A stretch of DNA of 39,569 bases from a bacterium (lineage in GTDB: Bacteria > SZUA-79 > Acidulodesulfobacterales > Acidulodesulfobacteraceae), in contig JAJZYP010000006.1 of the NCBI GenBank assembly GCA_021798015.1, positions 1 through 39,569 on the forward strand, written 5' to 3'. A model generated the notes under the pieces. It did no database searches and had not been told where the DNA came from. It was given only the letters and a program-made list of their open reading frames with translations. The position numbers and the translations under genes were made by a program. The first letter of the stretch is position 1. The number at the start of each line of letters is the position of its first letter. Shown piece after piece: positions 2,683-22,802 of this stretch.

Positions 2683-3855
2683 TTAATCAATTCCCGCGCT
2701 TTCCATGTTTTTAGCCTTCTCTTTTAAATTTGCAAAATAAATTCCCATAGGCCTGTATGCTAAATGCGACCATTTAGAAAATGGCACCTCTATTACTAAC
2801 ATCGGGAATAAAATTAACAAATGAATCAAATATAAATAAAACATCCATGGAACAGGATACTTATATACTATGGCAACACGCAATATAATTCCGGTAAGAC
2901 CTGTTAAAAATAGCAGTATTATAAACATCCAGTCGGTGTGATGGGAAAACTTGCTTCTTTCTATCTTTTTGGTAAGCCTTTTAATCACAAAATAAATAGT
3001 GCCAAACATAAGCCCTATGCTGGCAAAATAATCAAATAAGACTATATGAAGGACAGGAAGGCTGTTTTCTTTTTGAAACCAATCTAAAAAGAAGACGATT
3101 CCCACAAATAAAGCAACATAACTTATCATAAGAAAAAGATGCGTTAGCCAGAAATTATACTTTCCGTCCATAAGTTTTTTATAGAAAGGTTCCTTGCCGT
3201 CATCGCATTTTGCATACCTATACTGCGTAAAAAAATTAAAAATGAGCGACCATGCTTCCGTGAAATAAAGTTTTATAGGAATTTTCACACTCTTATCGCT
3301 TAAAACGGTTTTATTATACATATTGTATATAAAGGATGTAAGAATAACCGCAAGAAATACGGTCATCGGCCAATCAAAGAAATAGTCTATTTTTTCGGGG
3401 GATACTAACTGATTTAACGAAACCCCGCTCGCCGGGGATAAACCAAAAAGTATGGTCCATTCAATAAATACGATGAGCGCTACGATAAATAAGGCAATAT
3501 ATTCGGCATATTTGGACTTATATAAAAGTTTAGAAATTCCGGTCCAGTCATAAGCGCTTATTAGAAAGCGGCGAAGCGACATCATCAATTCCCCCGGCTC
3601 TGCTTTTCTTGGACAATTTTTGGAACACTCACCGCAGTAATAACATAGCCAAGGGTTCAAATCGCCGACTAATTGTTCCTTTAATCCCCAACCTGATAAT
3701 ATCATCTCCTTTCTGGGAAATGGTCTGTCTTCCGTTGATAATGGACAGACAGCGGAACAGGTACCGCACTGGAAACATTTCTTAAAATTGCTTTCACCTA
3801 TATTTTTTATATAGCTTACCAGTTCATTGTCGGTCTTTATTTTAGTATTTTCCAA
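2683..3855 (-). CDS. qmoC: QmoC, quinone-interacting membrane oxidoreductase subunit C
   Basis: This is a fusion of an HdrC-like ferredoxin domain and an HdrE/NarI-like cytochrome b membrane domain. Residues 27-37 (CFQCGTCSAVC) and 71-81 (CYYCGECSKNC) are two [4Fe-4S] motifs. The rest has about six hydrophobic segments with histidines suitable for haem b. The Qmo complex passes electrons from menaquinol to AprBA. The start is a TTG (3855) with an AGGAGG Shine-Dalgarno 7 nt upstream, giving MENTK. qmoB ends 12 bases upstream, so the two are transcriptionally and probably translationally linked. Length of 390 aa is typical. Confidence 0.95.
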   Translation of the reverse strand: MENTKIKTDNELVSYIKNIGESNFKKCFQCGTCSAVCPLSTEDRPFPRKEMILSGWGLKEQLVGDLNPWLCYYCGECSKNCPRKAEPGELMMSLRRFLISAYDWTGISKLLYKSKYAEYIALFIVALIVFIEWTILFGLSPASGVSLNQLVSPEKIDYFFDWPMTVFLAVILTSFIYNMYNKTVLSDKSVKIPIKLYFTEAWSLIFNFFTQYRYAKCDDGKEPFYKKLMDGKYNFWLTHLFLMISYVALFVGIVFFLDWFQKENSLPVLHIVLFDYFASIGLMFGTIYFVIKRLTKKIERSKFSHHTDWMFIILLFLTGLTGIILRVAIVYKYPVPWMFYLYLIHLLILFPMLVIEVPFSKWSHLAYRPMGIYFANLKEKAKNMESAGID

Positions 3856-3867
3856 TTTAACCTCCTA

Positions 3868-6171: not shown

Positions 6172-6286
6172 TATTATGTTACCCCTCTTTACAAATAAAT
6201 CTTTTCGCTCTTTTTAGCCGAACAGGCCAAAATATATATCTACATAGCCCTAAATGCCCTAACCCTTAAAATAATCGTAAACAAGC

Positions 6287-7600
6287 CTATCCATTGCCCT
6301 TTCTATAACTGTATTGAAGAACGGAAAGTGCCGAGGATGTTGCGGATTGACCGGACGCATAAACATCTAAAGGAAATTTTGAAACGCCTGCCGAAAAAAT
6401 GCCGTTTAACCCGTCCTGCTTAAATATAAAGCCGTTTTCATCAATATCTATATTTAAACCTTCGCTTATTTTTATGTCCTGTAAATCATCTTTAATATTT
6501 GGGACCATTCCAACTGCCAAAACAACCATTTCAGCCTTAACTTTCATTTTTTTTCCTGAAAGCATATCTTCAACATCAAATATAAGATCATTTGATGATG
6601 TTTCTTCCGAAATTTTTCCTACCACACCTTTGTTAAACTTAATATTTTTATCGCAAGTAGCTTTATTAAGAAAATTTTCGTATCTTCCTGGTGTTCTTAA
6701 ATCGATGTAAAAAATCGTTGGGCTTGAAGAAGGATTCTTTTCCCGTAAGTAAAGAGCCTGTTTTAAGGATGCCATGCAACAGACGGCAGAGCAATAAGGA
6801 AGATGATTTTCGTTCCTGGAGCCTGCACACTGGATAAAGGCAACATTATTAACCTCCTTATTATCGGACGGTCTTAATATTTTGCCCTTTGTTGGACCGT
6901 TATCGGATGCCAGCCTTTCCATCATAACATTTGTAATAACATTTTTAAATTTACCAAAGCCCAAATTTTCCAATTTTTCAATGTTATATGGCTTCCAGCC
7001 GGAAGCAAAAACTATTGTAGAAACTTTAAGTTCAAAAACATTTTCACTTGCATTAAGATTAATTGCATTATATTTGCAAGCCTCTTCACATTTTTTGCAA
7101 GATGAAAATTGACAATACTTTTCGTCCACCGTAAATTTTAACGGAAATGCAGATATGTTGGAAAGATATATGGCTTTTGTCGTATCCATATCATAATTAA
7201 ACTCGTTTGGTCTATCCTCGGGACAAACACGAGCGCATTCTCCGCATATCGTACAATTATCATTTATAAACTGCGGTTTTTGCCTTATTTTAACTATATA
7301 TCCTGTTCCATTTTTTTCCTTATCAATTTCTTCAACGGTGGAAGAAACAAAAAAATTTATATTTCCCTCCGCAGATGACTTAATGCGCTTAGTATTTATC
7401 TCGAATCCGCAAAATGGCGGACACAACTTCGGAAAATACTTATACATCTGCAAAACCCTTCCACCCAAATAAGGTCTCTTCTCGATAATATATACTTTTT
7501 TATCGGATGCCTCGGTAATTTCAAGTGCGGCTGAAACACCGCTATGGCCTCCGCCTATTATAAGAACCGGATTTTCATTATCATTATTTGACTCGTTCAA
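6287..7600 (-). CDS. qmoA: QmoA, HdrA-like FAD subunit
   Basis: It is a 437-aa flavoprotein partner of QmoB. The N-terminal Rossmann motif LIIGGGHSGVSAALEITEA is followed by a PYLGGRVLQMYKYFPKLCPP segment conserved in QmoA. Ferredoxin-type cysteines sit at CTICGECARVCP and CQFSSCKKCEEAC. A CAGSRNENHLPYCSAVCC segment, also present in QmoB, is typical of HdrA-like proteins. The start is TTG at 7600 with GGAGA 9 nt upstream. A further 115-base gap without features separates it from qmoB. The order qmoA-qmoB-qmoC behind aprBA is the usual one in sulfate reducers. Confidence 0.95.
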   Translation of the reverse strand: MNESNNDNENPVLIIGGGHSGVSAALEITEASDKKVYIIEKRPYLGGRVLQMYKYFPKLCPPFCGFEINTKRIKSSAEGNINFFVSSTVEEIDKEKNGTGYIVKIRQKPQFINDNCTICGECARVCPEDRPNEFNYDMDTTKAIYLSNISAFPLKFTVDEKYCQFSSCKKCEEACKYNAINLNASENVFELKVSTIVFASGWKPYNIEKLENLGFGKFKNVITNVMMERLASDNGPTKGKILRPSDNKEVNNVAFIQCAGSRNENHLPYCSAVCCMASLKQALYLREKNPSSSPTIFYIDLRTPGRYENFLNKATCDKNIKFNKGVVGKISEETSSNDLIFDVEDMLSGKKMKVKAEMVVLAVGMVPNIKDDLQDIKISEGLNIDIDENGFIFKQDGLNGIFSAGVSKFPLDVYASGQSATSSALSVLQYSYRKGNG

Positions 7601-7824: not shown

Positions 7825-9750
7825 TTAATTTTTTGGAACTAATTCCACATAAGGCTTTTTGAATACGTCAGGTTGTCCCGTTGCCTTATTAAGTTTAGAA
7901 TTAACAAAGACCTTCCAGTTTTGTTCGTCCAATTTAGGATAGTCCATTCTGTAATAGAAACCTGGGTATCTTGTTTCCTGTCTAAATAAAACATGTCTTA
8001 AATGAAGTTCTCCGACAACAGACCTGTGATAGTTTTCCCATGCCCTCATCAACTCATGTAAATTGGCTGCTGCAAGTTTTGGAGCATCTGCTTTAAGCCT
8101 GTTTAAAAGGTCTAATCCTCTTAAAAGGCTTGCCTCGCTTGTTCTGTAAAATGTTGAAGTGCCTGCAACATATTCATCCATAAGTTTATTTAATCTAAAC
8201 AAATAAAGTCTTGGCTTAATATAGTTTGGATTAACATTTGGCTCGGTAGAATAATCCTTAAATTTTTCAAATGTAATCATCGGACCGTAAATTTCTTCGG
8301 CAAGGGTTTTATTGTCAGTGTGAACAGTCGGTGTATAACCTGAATCGTCTAATATAAACCTCACTGCAGATTTTGCGGCCATTCTTCCCTCGGTATAAGA
8401 ACCGGATGAGAATTTATGACCCGAAGCTCCGACACCGTCTCCAGCGGTAAAAAGCCCGTTAACGGTTGTCATACGGTTATAACCCCAGTGCCACTCTTTA
8501 GGCGATACATCGGCTGGACCGCTAACCCACATTCCGCAAGCCCCCGCATGCGAACCAAGGAAATACGGTTCTGTCGGCATAACTTCGGAATTTGTCTCTT
8601 GAGGATCTATATCCATTGCAGCCCAGAGTCCCGCCTGAGCAACCGTCATGTCAAGAAAATCTTCCCATGCGTCCGCCTCAAGCGATTTCTTCCTTTTTTC
8701 GGGAAGGGTTTCAAAAAGGGCCTTCATTGCCCCCGAGGTGTTCATATAAAATGGGCCATTACCCTCCAGCCAATCCTTAAGCATAACATGGTTCCAAAGA
8801 CAAGTCGCAGGAACATGGGCAAGCCCGTAAGGCGGATAATCCTTAAGCATTTCTCCCCACTTTTGCATATAATCTTCACCGTGGGCATTTAAAACCCTGG
8901 ATTTGAACAGAGTAAACCAGGCTCCGACAGGACCGTAACCGTCTTTAAACCGGTTAGGAACGAACCTGTTTTCCATTGTTGTCATTTCTGCTCCGGCCTC
9001 ATATCCCATAGCATACGTAGAACCGGCATTCCATATCGCATACCATGTTCTTCCCATACCCTCTGCCTGAGATCTTGGTCTGAAGACGTTAACAGTACCT
9101 CCGCATGCCATTATTACGGCTTTTGCCTTGAATATGTAAATCTTTGCATCCCTTAAGCTAAAGCCTATTGCGCCTGCAACCCTGTTTTCATGCTTTTCGT
9201 CCATAAGAAGCCTTGTTATAAAAACCCTTTCGTAAATATTTTCATCGCCAAGGGCCTTTCTTGCCGCTTCGGCAACCAAAACCTTGTAAGATTCGCCATG
9301 AATCATAATTTGCCATTTTCCTGCCCTGAGCGGTCTGGCCCCTTCTTCGATAGTTCTGGTATCTTCTTCGTCTTCTTTAAATATTGGAAGACCGAATTTC
9401 TCAAATAGTTTAACGGAAGAATCAACATGTCTGCCTACATCATAAATAAGGTCTTCTCTAACTATACCCATAAGGTCGTTTGCAACCATTTTTACATAAT
9501 CTTCCGGCGTATTATCTCCAAGGTATGTATTGATTGCCGAAAGTCCCATTGCAACCGCTCCGCTTCTTTCGATTGCAGCCTTTTCGACTAAGGTTATTTT
9601 CATATCTTTCGGAGCCCATTTTTTTACTTCAAATGCAGCGCCGCATCCTGCCATACCGCCGCCCACTAATAAAAGGTCGGTATTTACTTCTTCTATTGTA
9701 TAATTATTTAAAACATCAGTGCTTGTCATTGAACCTTTTTGTTCAGCCAT
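7825..9750 (-). CDS. aprA: Adenylylsulfate reductase alpha subunit
   Basis: It is the FAD-containing catalytic subunit that converts APS plus two electrons to sulfite and AMP in the cytoplasm, and it can run in reverse. The length of 641 aa is normal. The FAD-binding motif LLLVGGGMAGCGAAFE is near residue 28, followed by EKAAIERSGAVAMGLSAIN, which is typical of AprA. The RPRSQAEGMGRTWYAIWNAG and FTAGDGVGASGHKFSSGSY segments are other hallmark regions. The start follows GGGGAT. It lies 65 bases after aprB and forms the AprBA heterodimer with it. Whether it belongs to the reducer or oxidizer lineage cannot be told by eye. Confidence 0.97.
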   Translation of the reverse strand: MAEQKGSMTSTDVLNNYTIEEVNTDLLLVGGGMAGCGAAFEVKKWAPKDMKITLVEKAAIERSGAVAMGLSAINTYLGDNTPEDYVKMVANDLMGIVREDLIYDVGRHVDSSVKLFEKFGLPIFKEDEEDTRTIEEGARPLRAGKWQIMIHGESYKVLVAEAARKALGDENIYERVFITRLLMDEKHENRVAGAIGFSLRDAKIYIFKAKAVIMACGGTVNVFRPRSQAEGMGRTWYAIWNAGSTYAMGYEAGAEMTTMENRFVPNRFKDGYGPVGAWFTLFKSRVLNAHGEDYMQKWGEMLKDYPPYGLAHVPATCLWNHVMLKDWLEGNGPFYMNTSGAMKALFETLPEKRKKSLEADAWEDFLDMTVAQAGLWAAMDIDPQETNSEVMPTEPYFLGSHAGACGMWVSGPADVSPKEWHWGYNRMTTVNGLFTAGDGVGASGHKFSSGSYTEGRMAAKSAVRFILDDSGYTPTVHTDNKTLAEEIYGPMITFEKFKDYSTEPNVNPNYIKPRLYLFRLNKLMDEYVAGTSTFYRTSEASLLRGLDLLNRLKADAPKLAAANLHELMRAWENYHRSVVGELHLRHVLFRQETRYPGFYYRMDYPKLDEQNWKVFVNSKLNKATGQPDVFKKPYVELVPKN

Positions 9751-9815: not shown

Positions 9816-10256
9816 TTATTTTTTTGGGACGGCAAGCGTCTTACCTGCCTCAGTGCATAGCAGTTCACTTTTTAAATCTCCCTCATTTACTTCGGGCATT
9901 CCATGATAAGGGTCAATACCTCCTTCAGGTGTGGTTCTAATCGGAAATTTAAATCTTTTAATCTTGCCGTTCCGATATTTTATCGTCCACATTATCGAAT
10001 CGGAACCGCGCATCGGAATAACCGATGAACCCAGCGGGGCAAAATCCTGATAGGCTCTCACCTCGATAGCAGACTGAGGACATATTTTTACACAGCTGTA
10101 ACACTCCCAGCATTGGTCAGGCTCTTGATTATAAGCCTTCATAATATCCTTGTTAAGAACCATAAGATCATTAGGACAGATATACTGACACGCAGTCTTA
10201 TCTCTCCCTTTACAACCATCGCATTTTTCCGTAATTACAAAACTTGGCATTTTCAT
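9816..10256 (-). CDS. aprB: Adenylylsulfate reductase beta subunit
   Basis: It is a ferredoxin-like electron-transfer subunit of 146 aa. Cluster ligands are in CDGCKGRDKTACQYICP (about residues 13-29) and CWECYSCVKICP (about 49-60). The C-terminal part, after the ferredoxin fold, wraps AprA in known structures. An AGGAGG-type ribosome site precedes the ATG. It transfers electrons, probably from QmoABC, to the AprA flavin. It is the second gene of the sat-aprB-aprA-qmoABC-hppA transcript. Confidence 0.97.
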   Translation of the reverse strand: MKMPSFVITEKCDGCKGRDKTACQYICPNDLMVLNKDIMKAYNQEPDQCWECYSCVKICPQSAIEVRAYQDFAPLGSSVIPMRGSDSIMWTIKYRNGKIKRFKFPIRTTPEGGIDPYHGMPEVNEGDLKSELLCTEAGKTLAVPKK

Positions 10257-10357: not shown

Positions 10358-11581
10358 TTATATTTCACCCTTTGCTGCTTTGTGCAGTTTAACCTCAATC
10401 TTATCTTCTTTTGCAAGGGACGCATAATACTCCTTTAATATTTCCAAAACCTCGGGTCTTGAAAAATGCTCAGGCACCTCTTTCCCTTCGGATAAAAGTT
10501 TTCTAAGCATAGTCCCGCTTAAAGTAAGCCTGTCTTCCTTCGAGTGGGGACAGGTTCTGGTGGATGCCATGCCGTCGCACTTGTGGCAATAAAATGTCCA
10601 GTCCATTTTAAATGGTTTTAATTCAAGCGCATTTTTTGGAATTTCATCGAATATTTTATGCGCATCGAATGGTCCATAATAGTCTCCCACGCCTGCATGA
10701 TCCCTTCCGACAATCAAGTGTGAACATCCGTAGTTTTGCCTAAAAACAGCATGAAGAAGCGCCTCTCTCGGACCCGCATATCTCATTTCCATCGGATAAC
10801 CCGCCTGAACAATCGTGTTTTTAACGAAATATTTATCAATTAAAGTATTAATGGCAACGGCTCTAACCTGCGCCGGTATATCGCCCGGTTTTAATTTACC
10901 TACAAGCTGATGGATTAAAACACCGTCCGTAGTTTCTATTGCAACTTTTGCAAGATATTCATGCGAGCGGTGCATAGGATTTCTTGTCTGAAAAGCGGCA
11001 ATGGTATTCCAGCCCTTTTCTTCGAATAATTTTCTTACCTCTGCTGGACGCATATATATTTCTTTAAACTCGACGGGATAAGAACCTTCGCTTAAAACTT
11101 TAACTTTTCCCGCAATATTAATATCTCCCTGAGCCATAACCTTTTGAACACCTGGATGTTCCGTATCGGTTGTTTTGAATATCTTTTGGCATTCATATGT
11201 TTTATCTATCGAATATTTTTCGTTTACTTTAATCATCCCCATAATTTCCAAGGTTTCTGAGTCCACAAGCGCCGCATCCTCACCTATTTTAATTTCATCG
11301 GCTATTTCCTTGGTAGCCGAAAGAGTAATAGGAATAGGCCAGAATGTCCCGTCTTCCATAGTAAAATTATCGCAAACACCTTTCCAGTCGTTTTTCCCCA
11401 TAAATCCCTCCAATGGGGTAAACGCGCCAATGCCCATCATTATTAAGTCCGATGTTTCTCTTGAAGTCATAGGCAGTTTTTTAAGTGTTTTAGCCTTTTC
11501 TTTTGCTTCTTTAAGTTCTGGTCCGGATAAAAGTAACGGTTTTAATCTTTTTTCTTTTCCATGTGGATTTACTAATGCCAT
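10358..11581 (-). CDS. sat: Sulfate adenylyltransferase (ATP sulfurylase)
   Basis: It forms APS and PPi from sulfate and ATP, or makes ATP in the reverse direction. It is a 407-aa homooligomeric type. The nucleotide/sulfate site motifs [11 protein letters not shown] and [13 protein letters not shown] are intact. [16 protein letters not shown] segment provides a probable zinc-binding knuckle seen in many bacterial and archaeal Sat proteins. There is no APS-kinase fusion. It has an AGGAAA-type ribosome site and is the first gene of its transcript, with a good promoter at 11678-11706. Confidence 0.97.
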
Positions 11582-11858: not shown

Positions 11859-12164
11859 CTACCATGTAATAGATTTAGAAGAATTAGCTACAAGAGCCAC
11901 AAAACCCTGGTAATCTACCGGCTTAGCAATAGAAATTATCTCATCGCTTTTAATGCCTCTTGCTTCGGTATCTGGAAATAGATAGTATATGGAGCAGGTT
12001 TGTGAAACATCGGAAACAAACTTTTCAAACATCCCGCCCTTTTTTGCGGCATAAATCCCGTCTTCGGTAAAAAGAATTACATCTCCTGTTTTTATATATT
12101 TAAGACAATTACTTAAAGAAGATGTTTCGTAAGGAGATTTTTTTATTATATTAAGCATTTGCAT
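11859..12164 (-). CDS. dsrH: DsrH/TusB-family sulfur-relay subunit
   Basis: It is a 101-aa protein starting MQMLNIIKKSPYETSSLSNC. The pattern, with KSP near the start, a Cys at residue 20, and GDVILFTEDGIYAAKKG, matches DsrH/TusB. In Allochromatium the DsrEFH hexamer passes persulfide sulfur between TusA-type carriers and DsrC, and DsrH Cys20 is conserved there. The start at 12164 fits a GAGG site about 10 nt upstream better than the second Met. It follows dsrF by 96 bases. Together with dsrE and dsrF it makes a complete hexamer set. It is not an abundant marker in sulfate reducers. Confidence 0.88.
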   Translation of the reverse strand: MQMLNIIKKSPYETSSLSNCLKYIKTGDVILFTEDGIYAAKKGGMFEKFVSDVSQTCSIYYLFPDTEARGIKSDEIISIAKPVDYQGFVALVANSSKSITW

Positions 12165-12260: not shown

Positions 12261-12638
12261 TCAGAACGGCAATACGACCTTCATCTCGTCTATTTTGCTT
12301 ATTAGGTCGGCTCTTTGCAACACCTCAACCTCTGTGAGAAGATCTTCTTCTTTCATACCTCTTTCGTCAAGCGATTCTTTTTCGACATATAAATGAGATA
12401 CCTCAAAGTCGTCTATAAGAACAAGATATGTCTGGGCAAAATTTTTGATATTTATTAAAGAGGGATTCTGTCCTTTTTTTAAAGAAAACACACCGTCCCC
12501 GATAAAAGCAACCCTGATGTCTTGTTCATACGAACTGAACATAATCATAGCTTCTATGACTTCCTGCTCATAAATAGTTCCGTAAGGAGCGGTCTTGCAT
12601 AAAAACATAATTTTAGCTTTTGACTTTTGGTCCTCCAT
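12261..12638 (-). CDS. dsrF: DsrF/TusC-family sulfur-relay subunit
   Basis: It is a 125-aa DsrE/F-fold protein. The segment KIMFLCKTAPYGTIYEQEVIE, then QDIRVAFIGDGVFSLKKGQ, is the DsrF/TusC signature (APYG near the N-terminus, DGV..L..GQ after the second strand). Its role is structural within the DsrEFH hexamer; the active cysteine is on DsrE. A strong AGGAGG site lies before the ATG. It sits between dsrE and dsrH in the canonical E-F-H order. Confidence 0.9.
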   Translation of the reverse strand: MEDQKSKAKIMFLCKTAPYGTIYEQEVIEAMIMFSSYEQDIRVAFIGDGVFSLKKGQNPSLINIKNFAQTYLVLIDDFEVSHLYVEKESLDERGMKEEDLLTEVEVLQRADLISKIDEMKVVLPF

Positions 12639-12715: not shown

Positions 12716-13066
12716 TTAGAATGTGACCAGTCTATCGGATTCTATCGATAATTCAAGGAGCTGTCCCAATCCCGATATTTCCGCAGATTCGCTCACGGTA
12801 TCCTGCGTCAGCCCTCTCCTTTTTCCGGCTGCAACGCAAACCACTAATCTAACCCCCCTTGATTTTAGATCGTCCATATACGATTTTATGTTTCTGTCGC
12901 CCTGAGGCGGCTCTAAATACTTATTCCCCGCATATACGGCATCATCGTAAAAGAATATGCCTATGATCTCATGCCCCATTTCTATTGCGGCTTTGACAAA
13001 ATTATAAGCAGTATCGAAAGCTTGAAAGTTATAAGGGCTTTCTTTTATTAATATACCAAATTTCAT
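12716..13066 (-). CDS. dsrE: DsrE/TusD-family persulfide-carrying subunit
   Basis: It is a 116-aa protein with the active-site segment RLVVCVAAGKRRGL; the cysteine is residue 77, matching the catalytic Cys78 of DsrE/TusD. In known systems this Cys carries a persulfide that is passed to or from the C-terminal Cys of DsrC or TusE. The AGGAGG site precedes the ATG. It is encoded right after dsrK, so it is probably co-transcribed with dsrMK and the dsrC-like gene. Confidence 0.92.
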   Translation of the reverse strand: MKFGILIKESPYNFQAFDTAYNFVKAAIEMGHEIIGIFFYDDAVYAGNKYLEPPQGDRNIKSYMDDLKSRGVRLVVCVAAGKRRGLTQDTVSESAEISGLGQLLELSIESDRLVTF

Positions 13067-13134: not shown

Positions 13135-14625
13135 TTAAAGAACTATAGCCGAGCTTACAAGCTGATGTACGCCCCCCACCATTTCCGCATCAAAACCATA
13201 TAACGGATACATTTTCGTAAATTGGGTCTTGCAAATTGCGCATATTAATGCAAGGAAGTTCACGCCATTATTATCCATTACTTCCTTAATAACCTGCATT
13301 TTGGGCATTGAACCTGCAATCCTTACATTCATTACTTCATCGGTTAGTATTCCGCCGCCGCCGCCGCAACAGTAAGTCTGTGCCCTGTTAGCCCCATCCC
13401 TCAATTCAAAAAAATGATTGGCGCATGCTTTTATTAGTTCTCTCGGTACAGTAAATTGACCTCCCGGCATTTCGCCTATCCTCGACGCCCGCGCAACATT
13501 GCAGGAATCATGATATGTAACTATCTTGTCGTCGTTTGCCGACGGATCCATTTTAATGACCCCGTCTTTAATAAGACCGAGCGTAAAATCGCAGATATGC
13601 GCAGGCTGTCTATATTTGTTATCAAGAAAATCAAACGGTCCGTTCATTGTATTACTGTAATTGTATAAGGCCCTCCATGCATGTCCGCATTCACCAACTA
13701 TAACCCTTTTAACTTTCAGTCTTCTTGCCTCATCCCATACCCTTTTATTTATTTCCTTTGTATTCTTGTAATTCCCGATAAACATACCAAAATTAGCGGC
13801 TTCCGATGCATAAGAAGATACCGTCCAGCTTATGCCTGCTTTATAAAATACCTTTGCATAACCCGCTAAAGATTCCATATGAGGCATAGCAAAAAAATCT
13901 GCGGATGGCGGAACAAGAAGAACTTCAGCGCCTTCCTCATCCATAGGGATCTTAACATCCTTCCCCGTGGCGTCTTTCATCTCCTCTTCGAGATCATCAA
14001 GGGTATTTCGGAGCGCAGCCGGAGGAATGCCCAGATTGTTTCCTATTTTGAAAACTTTATTAATTATTTGGGTAGAGTATTTTTGCCCGAGACCTATGCC
14101 GTCCATAATATCCCTTGCAGCCATTGTTATTACCGCAGTGTCTATTCCATACGGACAGTAATAAGAACACCTTCTGCATTCGGAACACTGGTAGTAGTAT
14201 GTAAACCATTTTTTAATCATCCGCTCGCTAAAAGGCTCGGCATCTGCCAAACTTTTAAAAAGACCCCCTGCAGGCGTAAAATAATATCTGTAAACCTTTC
14301 TCATTAATTCGGCTCTGCCGACAGGCATGTTGTTCGAATCGCCGGTACCCAAAAAAAACTGGCATTTATCGGTACATGCGCCACACCTCACGCAGATATC
14401 CATATAATCCTTTAGAGCTTTATTATGAGTTAAAAGTTGCTTAAAAATTCCTACTGCTTTAGTTTCCCAACCATCTTCCAGCGATGCAGGAAAACCGAGC
14501 GCGGTCATATCGTCATTTTCACCATGATACATCTTTTCGTAAGCGCTTGCGCCCGGAACAACCTTAGGAACCTTGATTTCGCCTGTCAATACAGGAACTT
14601 TATAAGCTGTTTTTGTTTTAGCCAT
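13135..14625 (-). CDS. dsrK: DsrK, HdrD-like Fe-S subunit of DsrMK
   Basis: It is a 496-aa cytoplasmic catalytic subunit related to heterodisulfide reductase HdrD. Two ferredoxin motifs are present (CVRCGACTDKC near residue 77 and CSECRRCSYYC near 146). They are followed by CCG-type cysteine regions: GECGHAW, YHDSCNVARASR, and YCCGGGGGILTDE, then LICAICKTQF. These would hold the special [4Fe-4S] cluster thought to reduce the DsrC trisulfide or disulfide. The gene follows dsrM by 35 bases. No dsrJ, dsrO or dsrP is nearby, so this appears to be a two-subunit DsrMK complex. Confidence 0.95.
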   Translation of the reverse strand: MAKTKTAYKVPVLTGEIKVPKVVPGASAYEKMYHGENDDMTALGFPASLEDGWETKAVGIFKQLLTHNKALKDYMDICVRCGACTDKCQFFLGTGDSNNMPVGRAELMRKVYRYYFTPAGGLFKSLADAEPFSERMIKKWFTYYYQCSECRRCSYYCPYGIDTAVITMAARDIMDGIGLGQKYSTQIINKVFKIGNNLGIPPAALRNTLDDLEEEMKDATGKDVKIPMDEEGAEVLLVPPSADFFAMPHMESLAGYAKVFYKAGISWTVSSYASEAANFGMFIGNYKNTKEINKRVWDEARRLKVKRVIVGECGHAWRALYNYSNTMNGPFDFLDNKYRQPAHICDFTLGLIKDGVIKMDPSANDDKIVTYHDSCNVARASRIGEMPGGQFTVPRELIKACANHFFELRDGANRAQTYCCGGGGGILTDEVMNVRIAGSMPKMQVIKEVMDNNGVNFLALICAICKTQFTKMYPLYGFDAEMVGGVHQLVSSAIVL

Positions 14626-14660: not shown

Positions 14661-15422
14661 TCAAAGGCTTAAATCTTCTGCATCGGGCTTATAATATCTT
14701 TCTTCCTCTGGGTTATCCGTCATATAACGAGTAGGACTGAAAAATATGCCGACAAAATGCATCACTTTGCTAAAGGGTATATATATGACAAGTAAAAGGA
14801 TTAATGAATAATGGACAAGAAAATATGGATTAGCTGGAATATTTATAGGATGAAATGTGGCAATGCCGTTAATAAACGGATCTAGCCTGTTATCTATTTT
14901 GGTAAGAGCATGGGCAGAGATTAAAAAATTCATTGATAATCCTGCAATGGCAATCATCATTAAAATAATAAGTATTAAATAATCCGAAAAAAGAGAGATA
15001 ATTCTCACCCTGTCAACGATCATTCTGCGAAGAAGCAGATAAAACAATGAAAGAAACATCAAAATACCAAAAAAGATGCCTGCATCGACAAAGACCGGAT
15101 ACCATTGCGGCAATGGATGATGGTAAACAAAATGACGGGCAAAATGAAGTAATATAAGCAAAATGAACGAAACATGAAAAATATATCCGGCAACCCATGT
15201 AGGCTTATTTGCTCTAAATAAACTCTTAAATAATAAAACCTCGCTTGCAACCCTTCCGACCGAACCGGCTTTTGTCAGAGGAGCAGGTGTAAGGGGGATT
15301 TTTACAGGCATCGGCGTATTGGCATACACGATTATTCTAATCAAAACGCCAATTATAAAAATAGCACCGGCAAAATATGTTAACAAAACATACACGCCGC
15401 TTAAGAAGTTTAAATCAACCAT
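14661..15422 (-). CDS. dsrM: DsrM, NarI-like cytochrome b membrane subunit
   Basis: It is a 253-aa integral membrane protein with about five or six hydrophobic helices and histidines (HVSFILLILLHFARHFVYHH; PYFLVHYSLILLL) suited to two b-type haems. It would oxidise menaquinol and pass electrons to DsrK. The ATG at 15422 was chosen because AGGAGG lies 7 nt upstream; a longer frame reading from 15455 has no such site. It is compact compared with DsrM of Desulfovibrio. It lies 54 bases after the dsrC-like gene. Confidence 0.92.
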   Translation of the reverse strand: MVDLNFLSGVYVLLTYFAGAIFIIGVLIRIIVYANTPMPVKIPLTPAPLTKAGSVGRVASEVLLFKSLFRANKPTWVAGYIFHVSFILLILLHFARHFVYHHPLPQWYPVFVDAGIFFGILMFLSLFYLLLRRMIVDRVRIISLFSDYLILIILMMIAIAGLSMNFLISAHALTKIDNRLDPFINGIATFHPINIPANPYFLVHYSLILLLVIYIPFSKVMHFVGIFFSPTRYMTDNPEEERYYKPDAEDLSL

Positions 15423-15476
15423 AATTGAACCTCCTTTAATCCTCCATTGAGGCACATATTTTTATTATACGCAACA

Positions 15477-15818
15477 TTATACGCAACCCGTAGGTTTTGG
15501 AAGACCCGCTATCTTGGCAAGCTGTTTAGCGGGACCCTCGGGAAAAAGCTCATAAACGAACTTATTTGCCTCTTTTTTGTCCTCAATATTTTCAAGCTTT
15601 CCCACCTCTTTTACAAGAGACTTAATCGCAGGAGCAACCTGAAATTTCATAAAATAGTCCCTTACCCAATTAATTAACTCCCAGTGCCTTTCAGTAAGCT
15701 CGATATTTTCTTCATTAGCAAGATATACGGCTATCTCCTTATTCCAGTTGTCAAGGTTCTGTAAGTATCCTTCATCATCAGTTTCGATTACCTTACCGCT
15801 AAACTCAAAAGACGGCAT
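15477..15818 (-). CDS. dsrC: DsrC/TusE-family protein with only one cysteine (CysB missing)
   Basis: It is a 113-aa small sulfur carrier. It has the DsrC fold signatures (EGYLQNLDNW; ELTERHWELINWVRDYF; YELFPEGPAKQ) and ends IAGLPKPTGCV, so the penultimate CysA is present. The position eleven residues earlier, where DsrC has CysB (QACRFAGLP in Allochromatium), here reads QLAKIAGLP. The codon is GCC for Ala, checked on the DNA, and there is no other Cys in the protein. By family rules this makes it TusE-like: able to carry a persulfide on CysA but not to form the DsrC trisulfide or internal disulfide. It nevertheless sits between dsrL and dsrM. The name is by position; tusE would be equally valid. 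Confidence 0.9.
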   Translation of the reverse strand: MPSFEFSGKVIETDDEGYLQNLDNWNKEIAVYLANEENIELTERHWELINWVRDYFMKFQVAPAIKSLVKEVGKLENIEDKKEANKFVYELFPEGPAKQLAKIAGLPKPTGCV

Positions 15819-15888: not shown

Positions 15889-17577
15889 TTAACTCATTTC
15901 AATATAGCCGCAGGGGCAAGTTTCAAAGCATTTAGCGCAGCCGTTGCATGTCTCCAAATGGAATTCATAATGCTGACCTTTTTGAAGCATTTTTATGCAC
16001 CCTTTAGAACAATACATAAAACAGTTCCCGCAATCGTAGCATAAGCCGCAGCTCAGGCATCTTTTGGCTTCCTGCACAAATTCTTCCTTATATAATCCAT
16101 AAACAATCGTCTGAAAGTCGCCATTAACTTCAGCTATCTCTCTTTCCCGCCTTTCATGTCTCTCACTCGGCTCATAATATTCCAAGTGCATATCCTTAGA
16201 ATTTACTATCAGTCTTTTATCCACTGGAACAGGCTCGCCGCTCAATCTTTCATGTATTGAAAAGGCGGCGGAATTTCCGGAACCGATCGCCTGAGTTACA
16301 AGCCAGAATCCTATTGCATCCCCTCCGGCAAACACATTTGATTCCCCTTCTATCAAGCCTTTATCGTCAATATTTAGATAACCTCTTTTTAAAACTTTAC
16401 TGATATCTTCAAAACCGGCAAAATTTGGCTTCTGGCCGCAGGAGGCTATCAGCGCCGAGCATTCGAGAGTAAACGTCGGATCGCCCTCTGCCATAATAAA
16501 CTGCGCCCTACCTGAGGCATCCTTTTCACCTAATTTTGTCGGCTGAAAAGCAACGGATAGAGTCCTATCGCCTTTTTCATCGATATTAATCGGAGCAGCC
16601 ATAAACTTAAAATCAATACCTTCCTTCATAGCAGCACTAACTTCCTCAGGATTTGCAGGCATCTGTTCCCTGCCCCTTCTATAGACAACAGTCACTTTTT
16701 TCGTCGTTGGCAACCTGCGAGCGGTCCTTGCACAATCCATTGCTGAATCCCCACCTCCGACAACTATAACATGAGAACCGAGATCCGACATCTCACCGCT
16801 ATTGACACGCTTTAAAAACTCAAGACCGCTGAAAACATTCGAAATTCCTGATTCATTTATGCCAAGAGAGATATTATTATATGCCCCTATACCGATAAAC
16901 ACCGCATCAAACTCTTTTTTAAGGCGGTCAAGCGATATATCTTTTCCGATAGGGGAATTAAATACGAACTCAACTCCAAGATCTTTTATCCTCTCAATTT
17001 CTGCATCAAGAACATTTTTAGGGAGACGAAAACGCGGTATCCCGTAACGAAGCATTCCTCCAGCCTTTTCGAATATTTCAAAAACGGTAACATTATAACC
17101 TCTTCTTGCAAGCTGATAGGCGCAGCTTAAACCTGCCGGTCCGCTACCTACAATCGCAACCTTTTCTTTTCTTTTTTCATCTGTAAGCTTTCTTAACGGC
17201 AGCTTATTTTCGATTCCGAAATCACCGATAAACATTTCAACGGCATTTATTGCAACAGCGGCGTCTTTTGCCGTCCTGTTGCACGCCGTTTCGCACGGAT
17301 GCGGACAGACCCGTCCCGTAACCGCCGGAAGAGGATTTGTATCGGTAAGTATATAAAACCCCTCCCTTATCGAATCATCTATCTCTCTGCCGTATGCTTC
17401 GCTCTGCGCAATGAACTGCAAATACTCCCGTATCTTTTCACTGTTAGGGCAGTTGTCCATACATGGAGGTTTTTTTTGAACATAGCTCGGACGCAAGGAA
17501 GACTGCTCCATAACGCTGGATGCCCCGAATTGCCTGCCGCCAATTGCTCTTTTTATCTTTTTAATCTCAACAGCCAT
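15889..17577 (-). CDS. dsrL: DsrL, NAD(P)H-dependent iron-sulfur flavoprotein
   Basis: It is a 562-aa protein of the GltD-like family. The N-terminal Fe-S region has CMDNCPNSEKI and CPHPCETACNRT. An FAD fold (AIVGSGPAGLSCAYQLA, about residue 140) and a NAD(P)H fold (VVGGGDSAMDCARTARRL) follow, with YRRGREQMPA. A C-terminal ferredoxin domain has CLSCGLCYDCGNCFMYC and CNGCAKCFETCPCGYIEM. This C-terminal ferredoxin separates DsrL from plain glutamate-synthase small subunits. DsrL links NAD(H) or NADP(H) with DsrAB. It is essential in Allochromatium sulfur oxidation and also occurs in some sulfur reducers and disproportionators. The operon position between dsrD and dsrC supports the call. Subtype (DsrL-1 or DsrL-2) needs a tree. 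Confidence 0.9.
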   Translation of the reverse strand: MAVEIKKIKRAIGGRQFGASSVMEQSSLRPSYVQKKPPCMDNCPNSEKIREYLQFIAQSEAYGREIDDSIREGFYILTDTNPLPAVTGRVCPHPCETACNRTAKDAAVAINAVEMFIGDFGIENKLPLRKLTDEKRKEKVAIVGSGPAGLSCAYQLARRGYNVTVFEIFEKAGGMLRYGIPRFRLPKNVLDAEIERIKDLGVEFVFNSPIGKDISLDRLKKEFDAVFIGIGAYNNISLGINESGISNVFSGLEFLKRVNSGEMSDLGSHVIVVGGGDSAMDCARTARRLPTTKKVTVVYRRGREQMPANPEEVSAAMKEGIDFKFMAAPINIDEKGDRTLSVAFQPTKLGEKDASGRAQFIMAEGDPTFTLECSALIASCGQKPNFAGFEDISKVLKRGYLNIDDKGLIEGESNVFAGGDAIGFWLVTQAIGSGNSAAFSIHERLSGEPVPVDKRLIVNSKDMHLEYYEPSERHERREREIAEVNGDFQTIVYGLYKEEFVQEAKRCLSCGLCYDCGNCFMYCSKGCIKMLQKGQHYEFHLETCNGCAKCFETCPCGYIEMS

Positions 17578-17662: not shown

Positions 17663-17893
17663 TTACTCAGGGAGCGATAGGAAACTTCCCCCCGCATAAC
17701 CGTATATCAAGCGACCTGAATCGGCAAGATCCCTGATGGCAGCTTTAACATCATCCTTTGTAACGCCTTTTGCCGAAAACTTAGCCTCCATCTCCTTAAC
17801 TATGTCGCCTGGCTTAAATCTTTTTTTATTTGTGAACTCCTTAATAAGGTTAACAATGGCTTCTTCTAGTTGAGTCTTAGTTTCATCTGTCAT
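17663..17893 (-). CDS. dsrD: DsrD, allosteric activator of sulfite reductase
   Basis: It is a 76-aa winged-helix-like protein, matching the usual 75-80 aa. The sequence TKDDVKAAIRDLADSGRLIY and the GSFLSLPE end match DsrD. DsrD is known to bind DsrAB and stimulate sulfite reduction rather than to act as a DNA regulator. It has been used as a marker for the reductive direction. A GGAGG site precedes the ATG. It is the third gene in the dsrABD order seen in sulfate reducers, which is informative beside dsrL and dsrEFH. Confidence 0.93.
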   Translation of the reverse strand: MTDETKTQLEEAIVNLIKEFTNKKRFKPGDIVKEMEAKFSAKGVTKDDVKAAIRDLADSGRLIYGYAGGSFLSLPE

Positions 17894-17996: not shown

Positions 17997-19082
17997 TTAC
18001 TGTCTAACTTGAGCAGAATAGTTCATCGTCGTTTCACCCAGCCTGAAATCGTCAATATGATATTTTGTAAATTTAAATCCAGTAATGTTAAAGAATTTAG
18101 GCCAACCTATTCTTTCAATCCATTCACCGACTCTTTCACCTTTCTCTGCGCCGTTTTTATAAGCATCAAGTATTGTTTTAACAGCCTCTACAACCTTAGG
18201 CCAGCGAGGTGGGTCATTTTCTAAAAACGGTACTGCAAGCTTTGAAAACGAAGGTTTGGTTCTGGCATTGGATACCTTACCACCCACCCAAATGGATACC
18301 CCATCGTTCAAAGGATCGGCAATAGGCATGCCCGGGCAGACCGTAAAACAGTTACCGCAGAAAACGCATGCCTCTTCAATAAGCTTCACACTTGGCTTTC
18401 CGTTATATGAATCCGGTCTGATTGCATTGGTAGGACACGATGCTATGGTACTTGGAACTTCACAGAGATTTACTATCTTATCGGGGAGCAGCTTCGGCGG
18501 TCTTCTGTGTATTCCCAGCACTGCAATATCGGAACAGTGGACAGCTCCGCACATGTTAAGACAGCATGCAAAAGCTATTCTTACTTTTGCGGGCAGCTTG
18601 GCATCGACATAATACTCATAAAGATCGTCCATCAGAGATTTGGTTACGCCGGATGCATCCGAAGCCGCTGTGTGGCAGTGTATCCACCCCTGCGTATGGA
18701 CAATGTTTGCAACAACATTTCCTATGCCTCCTAAAGGAAGATTTAACTTTTTAATATCATTCATCAGCGGTTCTATATTTTCCTCCTTATCAAGCAAAAA
18801 CTCCACATTATTTCTTGTCGTAAATCTTAAGTATCCGCCGCAATATTTATCGGCAAGGTCGCACAGATTTCTTATAAACGATCCACTGACAAGCCTTGGA
18901 GAACCAACCCTAACGGAGTAAATCTTATCCCCTGTCTCAGAAACATGAACCATGTGACCTGCGCTCAATAATTCATGATATTTCCACTTTCCGTAATTAT
19001 TCTTAATAACAGGATGCAAGAAATCATGATAATCATGAGGACCGACATCCGTAATCCTTTTTGTTCCAGAAACATCAGGCAT
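17997..19082 (-). CDS. dsrB: Dissimilatory sulfite reductase beta subunit
   Basis: It is a 361-aa subunit of siroheme-containing DsrAB. The siroheme/cluster region has Cys136 in [12 protein letters not shown] and Cys173, 174 and 178 in [15 protein letters not shown]. The inserted ferredoxin domain has Cys216 in SCPTNA and Cys239, 242, 245 and 249 in [11 protein letters not shown]. These are all normal for DsrB. The C-terminal part after about residue 320 wraps into the partner. GGAGG lies before the ATG. It follows dsrA by 90 bases. Confidence 0.97.
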
Positions 19083-19172: not shown

Positions 19173-20387
19173 TTAAACAGATTCACCCTGCCCTTCATCT
19201 GCTTCCACATATTCTTCGTATAATACAAACGGGTTTCCCCTTGGACTGGAAACCATTTCCGGAAGCGGTTCAAGCCCTATGGCTTCAATAAAGTTGCCTA
19301 TCCCAACCCTCTGGATTAACTCCCCAATTCTTTCCCTACTGACACCATATTCATCCCAGAATTCCCATATTTTTTCTATAAGATCCCTAAACCACTGGTA
19401 ATCGTTTTTGGCATCTTCGGCGACATCGTAAAATGGCACCAAAACCATTGAAAGACGGGGACCTGAAACCATAGGCGCTTTTGAGCCGAGAAGTATCGTC
19501 GCCCCACCCTTGATCCCTGGACGCAGGGCTTTAGGCATTACATTTATACAGTGCATACACTTCGTACAGTTTGAATCGTCAATCTTAAGGCCGTTTTCGT
19601 CATAGCTCATACATTTCGTCGGGCATTTACTTAAAACATATTTATGCAGATTCATCTTTTTGGCGTATTCTTTGACCATATCCTGATCTATCCTTATATT
19701 GTCCTTCCATGTGCCTATAACAGACATATCTGCCCTTGCAATAGATGCAGTGCAATCGTTTCCGCAGCCGGAAAATTTGAACTTAAACTTGTAATTAAAT
19801 ATCGGACGGTGCATCTCGTCTTGAAAAGCTTGGGTAATATTATAACATATATGCATGGTATCATAATTTGCTTTTGCACACCTTGCCATGCCGACACAAC
19901 ATGAAGGCGTTCTTAATGCCGAACCGCTGCCTCCAAGATCAAACCCGTGCGCCACGCATTGCTGAAAGATGGTCTCAAGCTCGGATGTTTTTGCACCCAG
20001 TATCTGGATATCGCCGGTCGATCCATGAAAGTTAAAAAGGCCGGAGGCATGCTTTTCCCCTATATCTACTATCTTCCTCAGAATATCGGACGTGTAAAAA
20101 AAACCAGACGGTTGGTTTATACGAATCGTATGAAATTCTTTCACCCCAGGGTATTTCTCCGGAAGGTCCGAAAACCTTCCTACAATACCTGATCCGTAAC
20201 CTTTAACGCCTACCATTCCTCCATGCTTCCAGTGGCCGGCTTTTTCATTATAGGACTGCTCAACCTGCCCCAGAAGATCTTCGGTCATTTCGCTCTTTTC
20301 CGCTGCTTTTTCGATTTCGTTGACAAAACTTGGCCATTTACCATTTTTTAGCTCGTCTAAAAGGGGGGTTTGATATTTCTTGCTCAT
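19173..20387 (-). CDS. dsrA: Dissimilatory sulfite reductase alpha subunit
   Basis: It is a 404-aa subunit. Siroheme-[4Fe-4S] ligands follow the CX5C-CX3C rule: Cys164 and Cys170 (CVGMARC) and Cys208 and Cys212 (CGNDC). A ferredoxin domain carries Cys255, 259, 274, 277 and 280 (CPTKC, CTKCMHC). It reduces sulfite in the cytoplasm, or acts in reverse on reduced sulfur. A GGAGG site precedes the ATG. It is the first gene of the dsr transcript, with a 168-base leader after a sigma70-like promoter. Phylogenetic type cannot be judged without alignment. Confidence 0.98.
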   Translation of the reverse strand: MSKKYQTPLLDELKNGKWPSFVNEIEKAAEKSEMTEDLLGQVEQSYNEKAGHWKHGGMVGVKGYGSGIVGRFSDLPEKYPGVKEFHTIRINQPSGFFYTSDILRKIVDIGEKHASGLFNFHGSTGDIQILGAKTSELETIFQQCVAHGFDLGGSGSALRTPSCCVGMARCAKANYDTMHICYNITQAFQDEMHRPIFNYKFKFKFSGCGNDCTASIARADMSVIGTWKDNIRIDQDMVKEYAKKMNLHKYVLSKCPTKCMSYDENGLKIDDSNCTKCMHCINVMPKALRPGIKGGATILLGSKAPMVSGPRLSMVLVPFYDVAEDAKNDYQWFRDLIEKIWEFWDEYGVSRERIGELIQRVGIGNFIEAIGLEPLPEMVSSPRGNPFVLYEEYVEADEGQGESV

Positions 20388-20750: not shown

Positions 20751-22286
20751 TCAAAATGGAGTATTAAAAAAAAGCTTATTGTGGTCTTTTATAAAAGAAA
20801 CCCATTTTTTAAACCATGAAGGAGAAGCTTTAGAATAAACATGGGTAAAACTTGCCAGCACATTTTTGTATATAATTCCATCATTTGAGCCGTTGACGCC
20901 GTAACCTCTTATAATATTAAAGCCAAAACAGGCATCGGGCATGTTATCCAAAAACGAGTGGTGAAATTCATGTCCTTTTAACGTTCTGACTTTCTGATGC
21001 CATTGCCATGAATCACGGGAGTAATTTAAGGGCTTAAGCATAGTATATCCATGGCCCTTGGGTTTTTTAGTTAATTTAACGTCCGCATCGATAATGCCGA
21101 CCATTGCGCTTTCTGTTTCGTTATGTGTAATGCTCCTGCACAAATACATAAGACCGCCGCATTCGGCATACACGGGTAAGCCTTCTTCTACCTTTTCTTT
21201 TATGTCTATCCTTATGCTATGATTAGCCTCAAGCGCCTGAGCAAACACTTCGGGAAAACCGCCGCCTATGTAAACTGCGTCAACATCAGGCAAAACCTGA
21301 TCGTTTAATGGAGAGAAAAAAACAAGCTCGGAGCCAAGAGCCTCTAGCTCCTCAAGATTTTCATTATAATAAAAATTAAAAGCGTTATCTAAGGCAATGC
21401 CGATTTTTAATCGTTTTTTGCGATTAGGAATGTTATTAATGATGTTATTAATATTGTTAATATTATGATTGCCATTATCGGTATGGAGCGGCGCCGCATT
21501 AGACGCGCTTATATTTATATGTTCACCTGCGGCGTTTGAATTATCCGAATCAAAAAACGGATTGACCGGGCTGCCTATTTTTTTAGCCATTTTACCGGCA
21601 GTAACATTTGACATTTTAAGAATAGCCGAAATATCGATATAACCGGAAACCATCCCGGTTATTTTTTCTATCAACTCATTAAGCTCTCCTTTGGCAAGAG
21701 TGGATACGAGTCCGAGATGACGCTGTTTGATTGAAACTTCGGCTATATTAGGAACAGCGCCTACAACATTTACATCGGTATAATATTTTATAGCTCTTAT
21801 CAGATTCTTTTCATGCCTTTTACTGTGAACTTTATTTAATAATAAACCGCTTAATTTTAAATTCTTATCAAAATCTTTAAATCCAAGAATCATCGGAACG
21901 ATGCTGCGATTAATCTCGCTGACATCGACAACAAGTATTACCGGCAAACATAAAAGTTTTGCCAAAGAGGCGTTGGATGTCCTGCCGTAAAGGTCTGTCG
22001 AATCATATAAGCCGTGATTACCCTCGACAATGCTTATATCTGACTCTGCCGAGCGTTCCATAAAATGTTTGACGATCTTTTTTTTGGAAAGAAAATAAAA
22101 ATCAAGATTATAGCAGTTTTTTTGTGAAGCAATACCAAGCCACATAGGATCTATAAAATCTGGACCCTTTTTAAAGGGCTGGACTGTGAAGTTTTTTTGC
22201 TTTAACAAACGACAGATGGCAATGGATAAAGTAGTTTTCCCGGAATTTCTCTTTGCCGCAGATATATAAAACCCGTTTGGAGACAT
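20751..22286 (-). CDS. dsrN: DsrN, CobB/CbiA-like siroheme amidase
   Basis: It is a 511-aa cobyrinic acid a,c-diamide synthase-family protein. The N-terminal ATP domain has a P-loop-like AAKRNSGKTT and the GPDFIDPMW substrate segment. The C-terminal class-I glutamine amidotransferase domain has the nucleophile Cys in YAECGGLMYLC and a late His region (HEFHHSFL). In dsr loci this family is thought to amidate siroheme for DsrAB. No cobalamin genes are near, which favours DsrN over CbiA. Between the two domains (roughly residues 225-290) lies a low-complexity, Asn-rich linker (NHNINNINNIINN) not usual for the family. The start follows GGGGAG about 12 nt upstream. Confidence 0.88.
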   Translation of the reverse strand: MSPNGFYISAAKRNSGKTTLSIAICRLLKQKNFTVQPFKKGPDFIDPMWLGIASQKNCYNLDFYFLSKKKIVKHFMERSAESDISIVEGNHGLYDSTDLYGRTSNASLAKLLCLPVILVVDVSEINRSIVPMILGFKDFDKNLKLSGLLLNKVHSKRHEKNLIRAIKYYTDVNVVGAVPNIAEVSIKQRHLGLVSTLAKGELNELIEKITGMVSGYIDISAILKMSNVTAGKMAKKIGSPVNPFFDSDNSNAAGEHINISASNAAPLHTDNGNHNINNINNIINNIPNRKKRLKIGIALDNAFNFYYNENLEELEALGSELVFFSPLNDQVLPDVDAVYIGGGFPEVFAQALEANHSIRIDIKEKVEEGLPVYAECGGLMYLCRSITHNETESAMVGIIDADVKLTKKPKGHGYTMLKPLNYSRDSWQWHQKVRTLKGHEFHHSFLDNMPDACFGFNIIRGYGVNGSNDGIIYKNVLASFTHVYSKASPSWFKKWVSFIKDHNKLFFNTPF

Positions 22287-22454: not shown

Positions 22455-22802
22455 TCAGAAATCTTTTCCATTTTCTGAATTCCTAAGCGATTTTATCATA
22501 GAAATTTTTTTAAGTTTATATGAAGAAAGGTTTTTGTTTTCGGTATCTTTATTTTCTAATAAAAATAATCTGTCAATGGAAAGAAGAAACAAAGCAAATC
22601 CATATTCTGCCGTTTTTTGTTTGTCAAAGTAGTGTTGCAAAAAAGCAAACTCATCTTCTTCTTCTATAAGTTTGCTTGTATAAAACACCTCGAGTTTTGC
22701 CATTAAAGGAAGTTCGGCAAAATATTTCAGCAATTCACCCACCTTGTCTTTATCTAATTTTGTAATCTTTAAAATATACTCTAAATCATATTTAAATTTC
22801 AT
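22455..22802 (-). CDS. Uncharacterised small helical protein
   Basis: It is a 115-aa protein that I do not recognise. It is predicted largely alpha-helical, with many Leu, Lys, Glu and Phe. A central acidic stretch (KLIEEEDEFAFLQHYFDKQ) and a hydrophobic patch (YGFALFLLSIDRLFLLEN) are followed by a Lys/Ser-rich tail. There is no signal peptide, cysteine motif or known catalytic motif. An AGAG-type site lies about 12 nt before the ATG. It lies between dsrN and tRNA-Ser on the same strand. It is probably real because of its length and clean context. Confidence 0.6.
   Translation of the reverse strand: MKFKYDLEYILKITKLDKDKVGELLKYFAELPLMAKLEVFYTSKLIEEEDEFAFLQHYFDKQKTAEYGFALFLLSIDRLFLLENKDTENKNLSSYKLKKISMIKSLRNSENGKDF

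Follow-up and report, generated by a model that had tools for sequence, protein, structure and literature searches.

The DsrC protein encoded in the dsr cluster analysed here carries a single cysteine, and it is a genuine, lineage-fixed exception to the two-cysteine rule. The textbook mechanism of sulfite reduction needs both DsrC cysteines (CysA and CysB), and in this protein the CysB position is occupied by alanine. Taken together, our results suggest that this DsrC, the only one of its phylum and maintained by selection, is the partner of DsrAB, DsrL and DsrMK, and that it probably acts through CysA alone, with an outside thiol resolving the bound sulfur. The host phylum is SZUA-79 (Ca. Acidulodesulfobacterota), a group of acid-mine bacteria.

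The dsrC gene and its cluster

The window, that is, the whole stretch of 39,569 nucleotides that was analysed, carries a dsr cluster with the transcription order dsrN-dsrA-dsrB-dsrD-dsrL-dsrC-dsrM-dsrK-dsrE-dsrF-dsrH-sat-aprB-aprA-qmoA-qmoB-qmoC-hppA. Its features are as follows.

20751-22286, minus strand: dsrN-like CbiA/GATase_3 protein; position upstream of dsrA conserved in relatives
19173-20387, minus strand: dsrA (NIR_SIR; PDB 3mm5_A, E=2e-134)
17997-19082, minus strand: dsrB (TIGR02066, 481.7 bits)
17663-17893, minus strand: dsrD, 76 aa (59% identity to the L230 ORF between dsrB and dsrL)
15889-17577, minus strand: dsrL, type DsrL-2 by context, with a YRR motif (NF009410, 579.7 bits; located between dsrD and dsrC in relatives)
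15477-15818, minus strand: dsrC, one-cysteine DsrC of 113 aa (PF04358, TIGR03342, AlphaFold2 model)
15516-15518, minus strand: Ala101 at the CysB position, codon GCC (alignment to solved DsrC chains)
15483-15485, minus strand: Cys112, the CysA and sole cysteine of DsrC, codon TGC
14661-15455, minus strand: dsrM-like membrane cytochrome b (NF038037, 110 bits, under the cut-off of 300)
13135-14625, minus strand: dsrK, catalytic subunit (NF045796, 506.7 bits)
12716-13066, minus strand: dsrE, catalytic Cys77 present (TIGR03012, 102.1 bits)
12261-12638, minus strand: dsrF (TIGR03010, 110 bits)
11859-12164, minus strand: dsrH (TIGR03011, 86 bits)
10358-11581, minus strand: sat, sulfate adenylyltransferase (profile matches)
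9816-10256, minus strand: aprB (TIGR02060, 221.5 bits)
7825-9750, minus strand: aprA (position and FAD_binding_2)
2683-7600, minus strand: qmoA, qmoB and qmoC (domain content and order)

The first-pass annotation had described a full dsr operon, and dsrABDLCMK-EFH plus sat, aprAB and qmoABC are indeed present; the description has to be narrowed in one respect, as dsrJOP was not found in the window's dsr cluster. Absence of dsrJOP in Ca. Acidulodesulfobacterales was already reported in PMC10504309. The 76-aa dsrD ORF gave no match in the Pfam search, and dsrD homologues are present in 11 two-cysteine dsr loci. The NADP motif of dsrL is YRR both in the window and in the relatives nearest to it (L033, L034, L037-L039), and YNK in the other SZUA-79 loci; YNK is what PMC7596348 reports for DsrL of this group. 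Elsewhere in the window, a 115-aa ORF without a Pfam match (22455-22802) precedes dsrN, as a conserved ORF, in most of the SZUA-79 dsr loci long enough to include this region, and a 436-aa protein (33006-34316) with the cysteine-rich motif CQYFENKSECAFCDI, also without a Pfam match, appears radical-SAM-like by eye.

In profile searches, the DsrC protein matched PF04358 with 136.6 bits, which places it in the DsrC/TusE/DsvC superfamily, and TIGR03342 with 140.4 bits, above the cut-off of 53.5. Its AlphaFold2 model (pLDDT 90.6) found 1yx3, 1sau and 2v4j_C, the last being D. vulgaris DsrC, as structural matches by Foldseek, and the predicted fold compares with 1yx3 and 1sau at a TM of about 0.83. 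The CysA and CysB columns were set by aligning the solved DsrC chains (A. vinosum 1yx3, A. fulgidus 1sau and 2v4j). The minus-strand translation of 15477-15818 ends in ...FPEGPAKQLAKIAGLPKPTGCV, and the final residues of the 113-residue protein are GPAKQLAKIAGLPKPTGCV. The penultimate residue is the CysA of canonical dissimilatory DsrC (Cys112, invariant in the phylum), and the CysB column, 11 residues ahead of it, holds Ala101 instead of the canonical cysteine. The GCC codon and the lone penultimate cysteine noted in the first-pass annotation were thus confirmed, with Ala101 at 15516-15518 and Cys112 as the only cysteine.

Fixation and sole copy in phylum SZUA-79

This DsrC has its relatives in MAGs with names such as SZUA-79 and Ca. 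Acididesulfobacter diazotrophicus, which places the window in phylum SZUA-79. When 30 genomes of phylum SZUA-79 were searched, all 23 DsrC-positive genomes had Ala at CysB, and a two-cysteine DsrC was found in none of the 30. Two of the genomes carry two full DsrC copies, with Ala in both. The alanine is encoded by GCC, GCT and GCA in 9, 8 and 5 of 22 phylum sequences, respectively, and pN/pS of dsrC in the phylum is 0.12-0.23. Since the codon varies and pN/pS is this low, Ala at CysB appears to be kept by selection.

Two simpler accounts had been left open at the outset, namely a canonical two-cysteine DsrC elsewhere in the genome and a sequencing error at the Ala codon, and both are now hardly credible. 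The window's own MAG is 78.85% complete, which leaves some room for a missed gene. It has one PF04358 match, and because of its incompleteness the lack of a second DsrC rests mainly on the relatives. Among these, only the Ala version occurs in the 14 DsrC-positive phylum members with completeness of at least 90% and contamination of at most 5%. A sequencing error is excluded because the phylum-wide alanine is written with three different synonymous codons. Because no canonical DsrC is present elsewhere, the single-cysteine DsrC is the partner of DsrAB, DsrMK and DsrL.

The distribution of dsrC also follows that of dsrB. Of the 30 phylum genomes, 23 have full-length dsrB, and these 23 are also the ones with DsrC; in one further genome (G025) dsrB is truncated and DsrC is missing, and six members without dsrB and DsrC still have MnmA. 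Given this identical distribution, DsrC serves the Dsr pathway, and because MnmA remains in members without DsrC, tRNA 2-thiolation in the phylum does not need DsrC. The order dsrN-A-B-D-L-C-M-K-E-F-H is conserved in relatives as far as contigs reach, and sat-aprBA-qmoAB also follow in those whose contigs carry that region there. The available parts of Tan et al., PMC10504309, PMC7596348 and PMC10591310 make no mention of the missing CysB.

DsrC outside the phylum

In a 386-genome sample, DsrC was found by profile search and each C-terminal arm was then read. There are 25 dsrB-positive genomes outside the phylum, and 23 of them have at least one two-cysteine DsrC. No DsrC was found in one of the other two (G283, 83% complete), and the other, G262 (1.8 Mb, 2 contigs, 100% complete), has one-cysteine versions only. 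A degenerate DNA pattern (non-Cys CysB before GLPKPTGC) occurred only in the window's phylum among the 386 genomes, the Desulfurella arm reading GLSKPTGC and so lying outside the pattern.

The order dsrA-B-D-L-C-M-K of G262 is that of the window, and identity to the window proteins is 72% for DsrK, 70% for DsrB, 67% for DsrA and 51% for DsrC. Its dsr-operon DsrC reads GPARQLVRYAGLSKPTGCV. Within its order, dsrB occurs in 4 of 19 genomes (G262, G386, G387 and G400), and the dsr-operon DsrC of all four has Val at CysB. A second DsrC, in G262, G386 and G387, has Ala there; this apparent Desulfurella second one-cysteine DsrC (L231, G262) is located far from the dsr operon. No match to DsrE of the TusD/DsrE equivalog was obtained in this Desulfurella-like order, and no dsrEFH lies near the dsr operon of these genomes.

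G262 is almost certainly Desulfurella, and we also take G386 and G387 as such, because the dsr gene arrangement matches that published for D. amilsii (PMC5317093), in which two genes separate dsrB from dsrC, DsrC is encoded twice, and the genes listed include dsrM and dsrK but not JOP. The report that D. acetivorans lacks DsrC, DsrM and DsrK (Florentino 2017) is at odds with this assignment. As a side observation, two Spirochaetia MAGs (L055 and L056) have a two-cysteine DsrC near dsrM-like and dsrK-like genes, and no dsrAB match was found in the fetched stretch. The abstract of the Desulfurella proteomics study of Florentino 2019 reportedly refers to a modified sulfite-reduction mechanism, and its authors may have noticed the missing cysteine already.

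Phylogeny of DsrC

In a DsrC tree from which the arm was excluded by removing the last 14 residues, SZUA-79 and the Desulfurella operon DsrC formed one clade (100/100), separate from a TusE clade (100/98) and from a second one-cysteine clade (100/95). With the arm included, the SZUA-79/Desulfurella clade lay among two-cysteine DsrC, the deeper forks being weakly supported. The DsrA and DsrK trees also unite SZUA-79 with Desulfurella (100 and 99, respectively). The two groups therefore share a dsrABDLCMK lineage by gene order, by the DsrA, DsrC and DsrK clades and by the absence of CysB in both, and the simplest reading is that CysB was lost once, in an operon later passed between the two phyla.

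The first-pass annotation had likened the protein to TusE, and its single CysA with Ala at CysB does resemble the DsrC/TusE of DsrAB-less organisms (PMC3397948). DsrEFH is, in addition, homologous to TusDCB, so that a tRNA 2-thiolation relay merely located in a dsr operon could be envisaged. This account is very improbable and the likeness did not hold up: the protein is missing from all phylum members without dsrB even though MnmA is present there, the trees put it with DsrC and away from the TusE clade, its PTGCV tail is retained, and its match to the TusE equivalog NF008562 (115.8 bits) is below the cut-off of 191.

Cysteines of the partner proteins

Of the DsrK cysteines, the 13 that two-cysteine relatives conserve are all retained, and the catalytic Cys77 of DsrE is conserved. 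We searched DsrA, DsrB, DsrD, DsrL, DsrM and DsrK for a compensating cysteine that both CysB-less groups had gained and the others lacked; there was none, and there is therefore no sign of one of these partners supplying CysB. Two DsrA cysteines (19173-20387; aligned ORF positions 113 and 180) that are frequent in organisms with two-cysteine DsrC are absent in all CysB-less lineages, which may be a lineage signal only. In DsrH (11859-12164), Cys24 is present in the window, in 18% of the CysB-less set and in all four two-cysteine loci compared; it is apparently the counterpart of A. vinosum Cys20, which is essential in vivo.

Proposed mechanism and its rivals

An intramolecular CysA-S-CysB trisulfide is impossible because CysB is absent, so on this point of chemistry the first-pass annotation was right, and CysB-less lineages must use either another mechanism or another sulfur intermediate. 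HdrDE, a relative of DsrMK, acts on an intermolecular disulfide. We infer the chemical steps of the following scheme, including persulfide loading of the window's DsrC. DsrL would feed NAD(P)H electrons to DsrAB, where sulfite would be reduced to the S(0) level, and DsrAB would load the S(0) onto Cys112 as a persulfide. As the protein lacks CysB, an outside thiol, on a second DsrC molecule, another protein or a small molecule, would be needed to resolve this persulfide; resolution would free sulfide and leave an intermolecular disulfide, which DsrMK, a heterodisulfide-reductase homologue, would reduce. DsrEFH, where present, could also load Cys112 in the oxidative direction.

Several published observations are relevant here. 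In A. vinosum, all sulfur binding to DsrC is at Cys111, the CysA equivalent, and the Cys100Ser variant can still be persulfurated and take up sulfur from DsrEFH (PMC3397948). DsrL-2 of D. amilsii is an active NADP(H) oxidoreductase (PMC7596348), and for the SZUA-79 pathway both directions have been proposed (PMC6776010). The first-pass annotation had suggested a one-cysteine carrier working with DsrEFH. The carrier part stands, with the single-cysteine DsrC as the partner of DsrAB, DsrMK and DsrL, but DsrEFH is not required, because the Desulfurella relatives with the same operon and a Val DsrC lack it.

The main rival is that DsrAB itself carries out the full six-electron reduction of sulfite to free sulfide, the electrons coming from DsrL and NAD(P)H; DsrC would be a helper that gates or accelerates the reaction, and DsrMK would serve another thiol/disulfide couple. 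The adjacency of dsrL and dsrC in every locus whose contig reaches it would fit such a role, as would the NADP(H) activity of D. amilsii DsrL-2 (PMC7596348), and DsrC-free reduction to H2S by DsrAB was discussed for D. vulgaris (PMC6470260). However, neither CysA nor the PTGCV tail varies within the phylum, and dsrC, dsrM and dsrK remain neighbours; both observations suggest that sulfur is loaded on DsrC and that DsrC is linked to DsrMK. We regard full reduction at DsrAB as unlikely, although worth serious consideration.

Somewhat less likely still is an oxidative operon, in which DsrEFH would give sulfane sulfur to CysA and DsrAB would oxidise the CysA persulfide straight to sulfite without a trisulfide. 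In its favour, dsrEFH is in the operon with the catalytic Cys77 of DsrE conserved, DsrMK and DsrC group with oxidative types (PMC10504309), and transfer from DsrEFH to DsrC is unidirectional, back-transfer not having been seen in A. vinosum (PMC3397948). However, dsrD is present and DsrAB of the group is reductive-type (PMC6776010), the sister Desulfurella-like operon has a CysB-less DsrC without DsrEFH, published descriptions have D. amilsii reducing thiosulfate and sulfur, and current oxidative models use the DsrC trisulfide too.

Returning to the persulfide scheme, we tentatively propose its extension to both groups, which we hold to be quite possible though short of an even chance: Dsr sulfite reduction, or its reversal, would proceed in SZUA-79 and Desulfurellales without a DsrC trisulfide, through a CysA persulfide, with DsrMK conserving energy on an intermolecular disulfide as HdrDE does, and CysB would be non-essential. 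If true, CysB and the intramolecular trisulfide would be dispensable for Dsr energy metabolism. A phylum whose sole DsrC lacks CysB, and beside it a sister group that is apparently in culture, provide a natural experiment on the essentiality of the trisulfide, and since Desulfurella can be grown, the question is directly testable.

Comparison with known systems

Compared with the canonical two-cysteine DsrC (DsvC) of sulfate/sulfite reducers and sulfur oxidisers, the window's DsrC has the same fold, the same arm (GPAK...GLPKPTGCV), the same CysA and a similar operon context with dsrAB and dsrMK. The canonical protein has CysB, whereas the window has Ala and its Desulfurella-like sister Val. 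The residue directly before the CysB site also differs (Leu in the window, Ala in canonical DsrC; listed as A101L in ORF numbering), and the window's DsrC has a 2-residue insertion ahead of the last helices relative to the aligned two-cysteine DsrC and TusE rows.

TusE, the E. coli-type tRNA thiolation relay, belongs to the same fold family and likewise has the penultimate cysteine only. However, most TusE examined have Thr at CysB and a PVKC/PAKC-type tail, in contrast to Ala and the PTGCV tail here, and TusE is not tied to dsrAB as the window's DsrC is. Most phage single-cysteine DsrC-type proteins were thought likely to be TusE (PMC8190135); calling every single-cysteine DsrC a TusE is unsafe. 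The second one-cysteine DsrC-like clade (G252b, G035b and the Desulfurella-like second copies) has Ala at CysB as in the window, but is separate from the window's DsrC and coexists with a two-cysteine DsrC in G252 and G035.

The dsr-operon DsrC of Desulfurellales (G262, G386, G387, G400 and presumably D. amilsii DESAMIL20_1431) also lacks CysB, has the dsrABDLCMK order and falls in the same clade as the window's DsrC. The two differ in that Desulfurellales have Val at CysB and no DsrEFH, whereas the window has Ala and DsrEFH, and in that Desulfurellaceae have no APS reductase according to the literature, whereas the window has aprAB.
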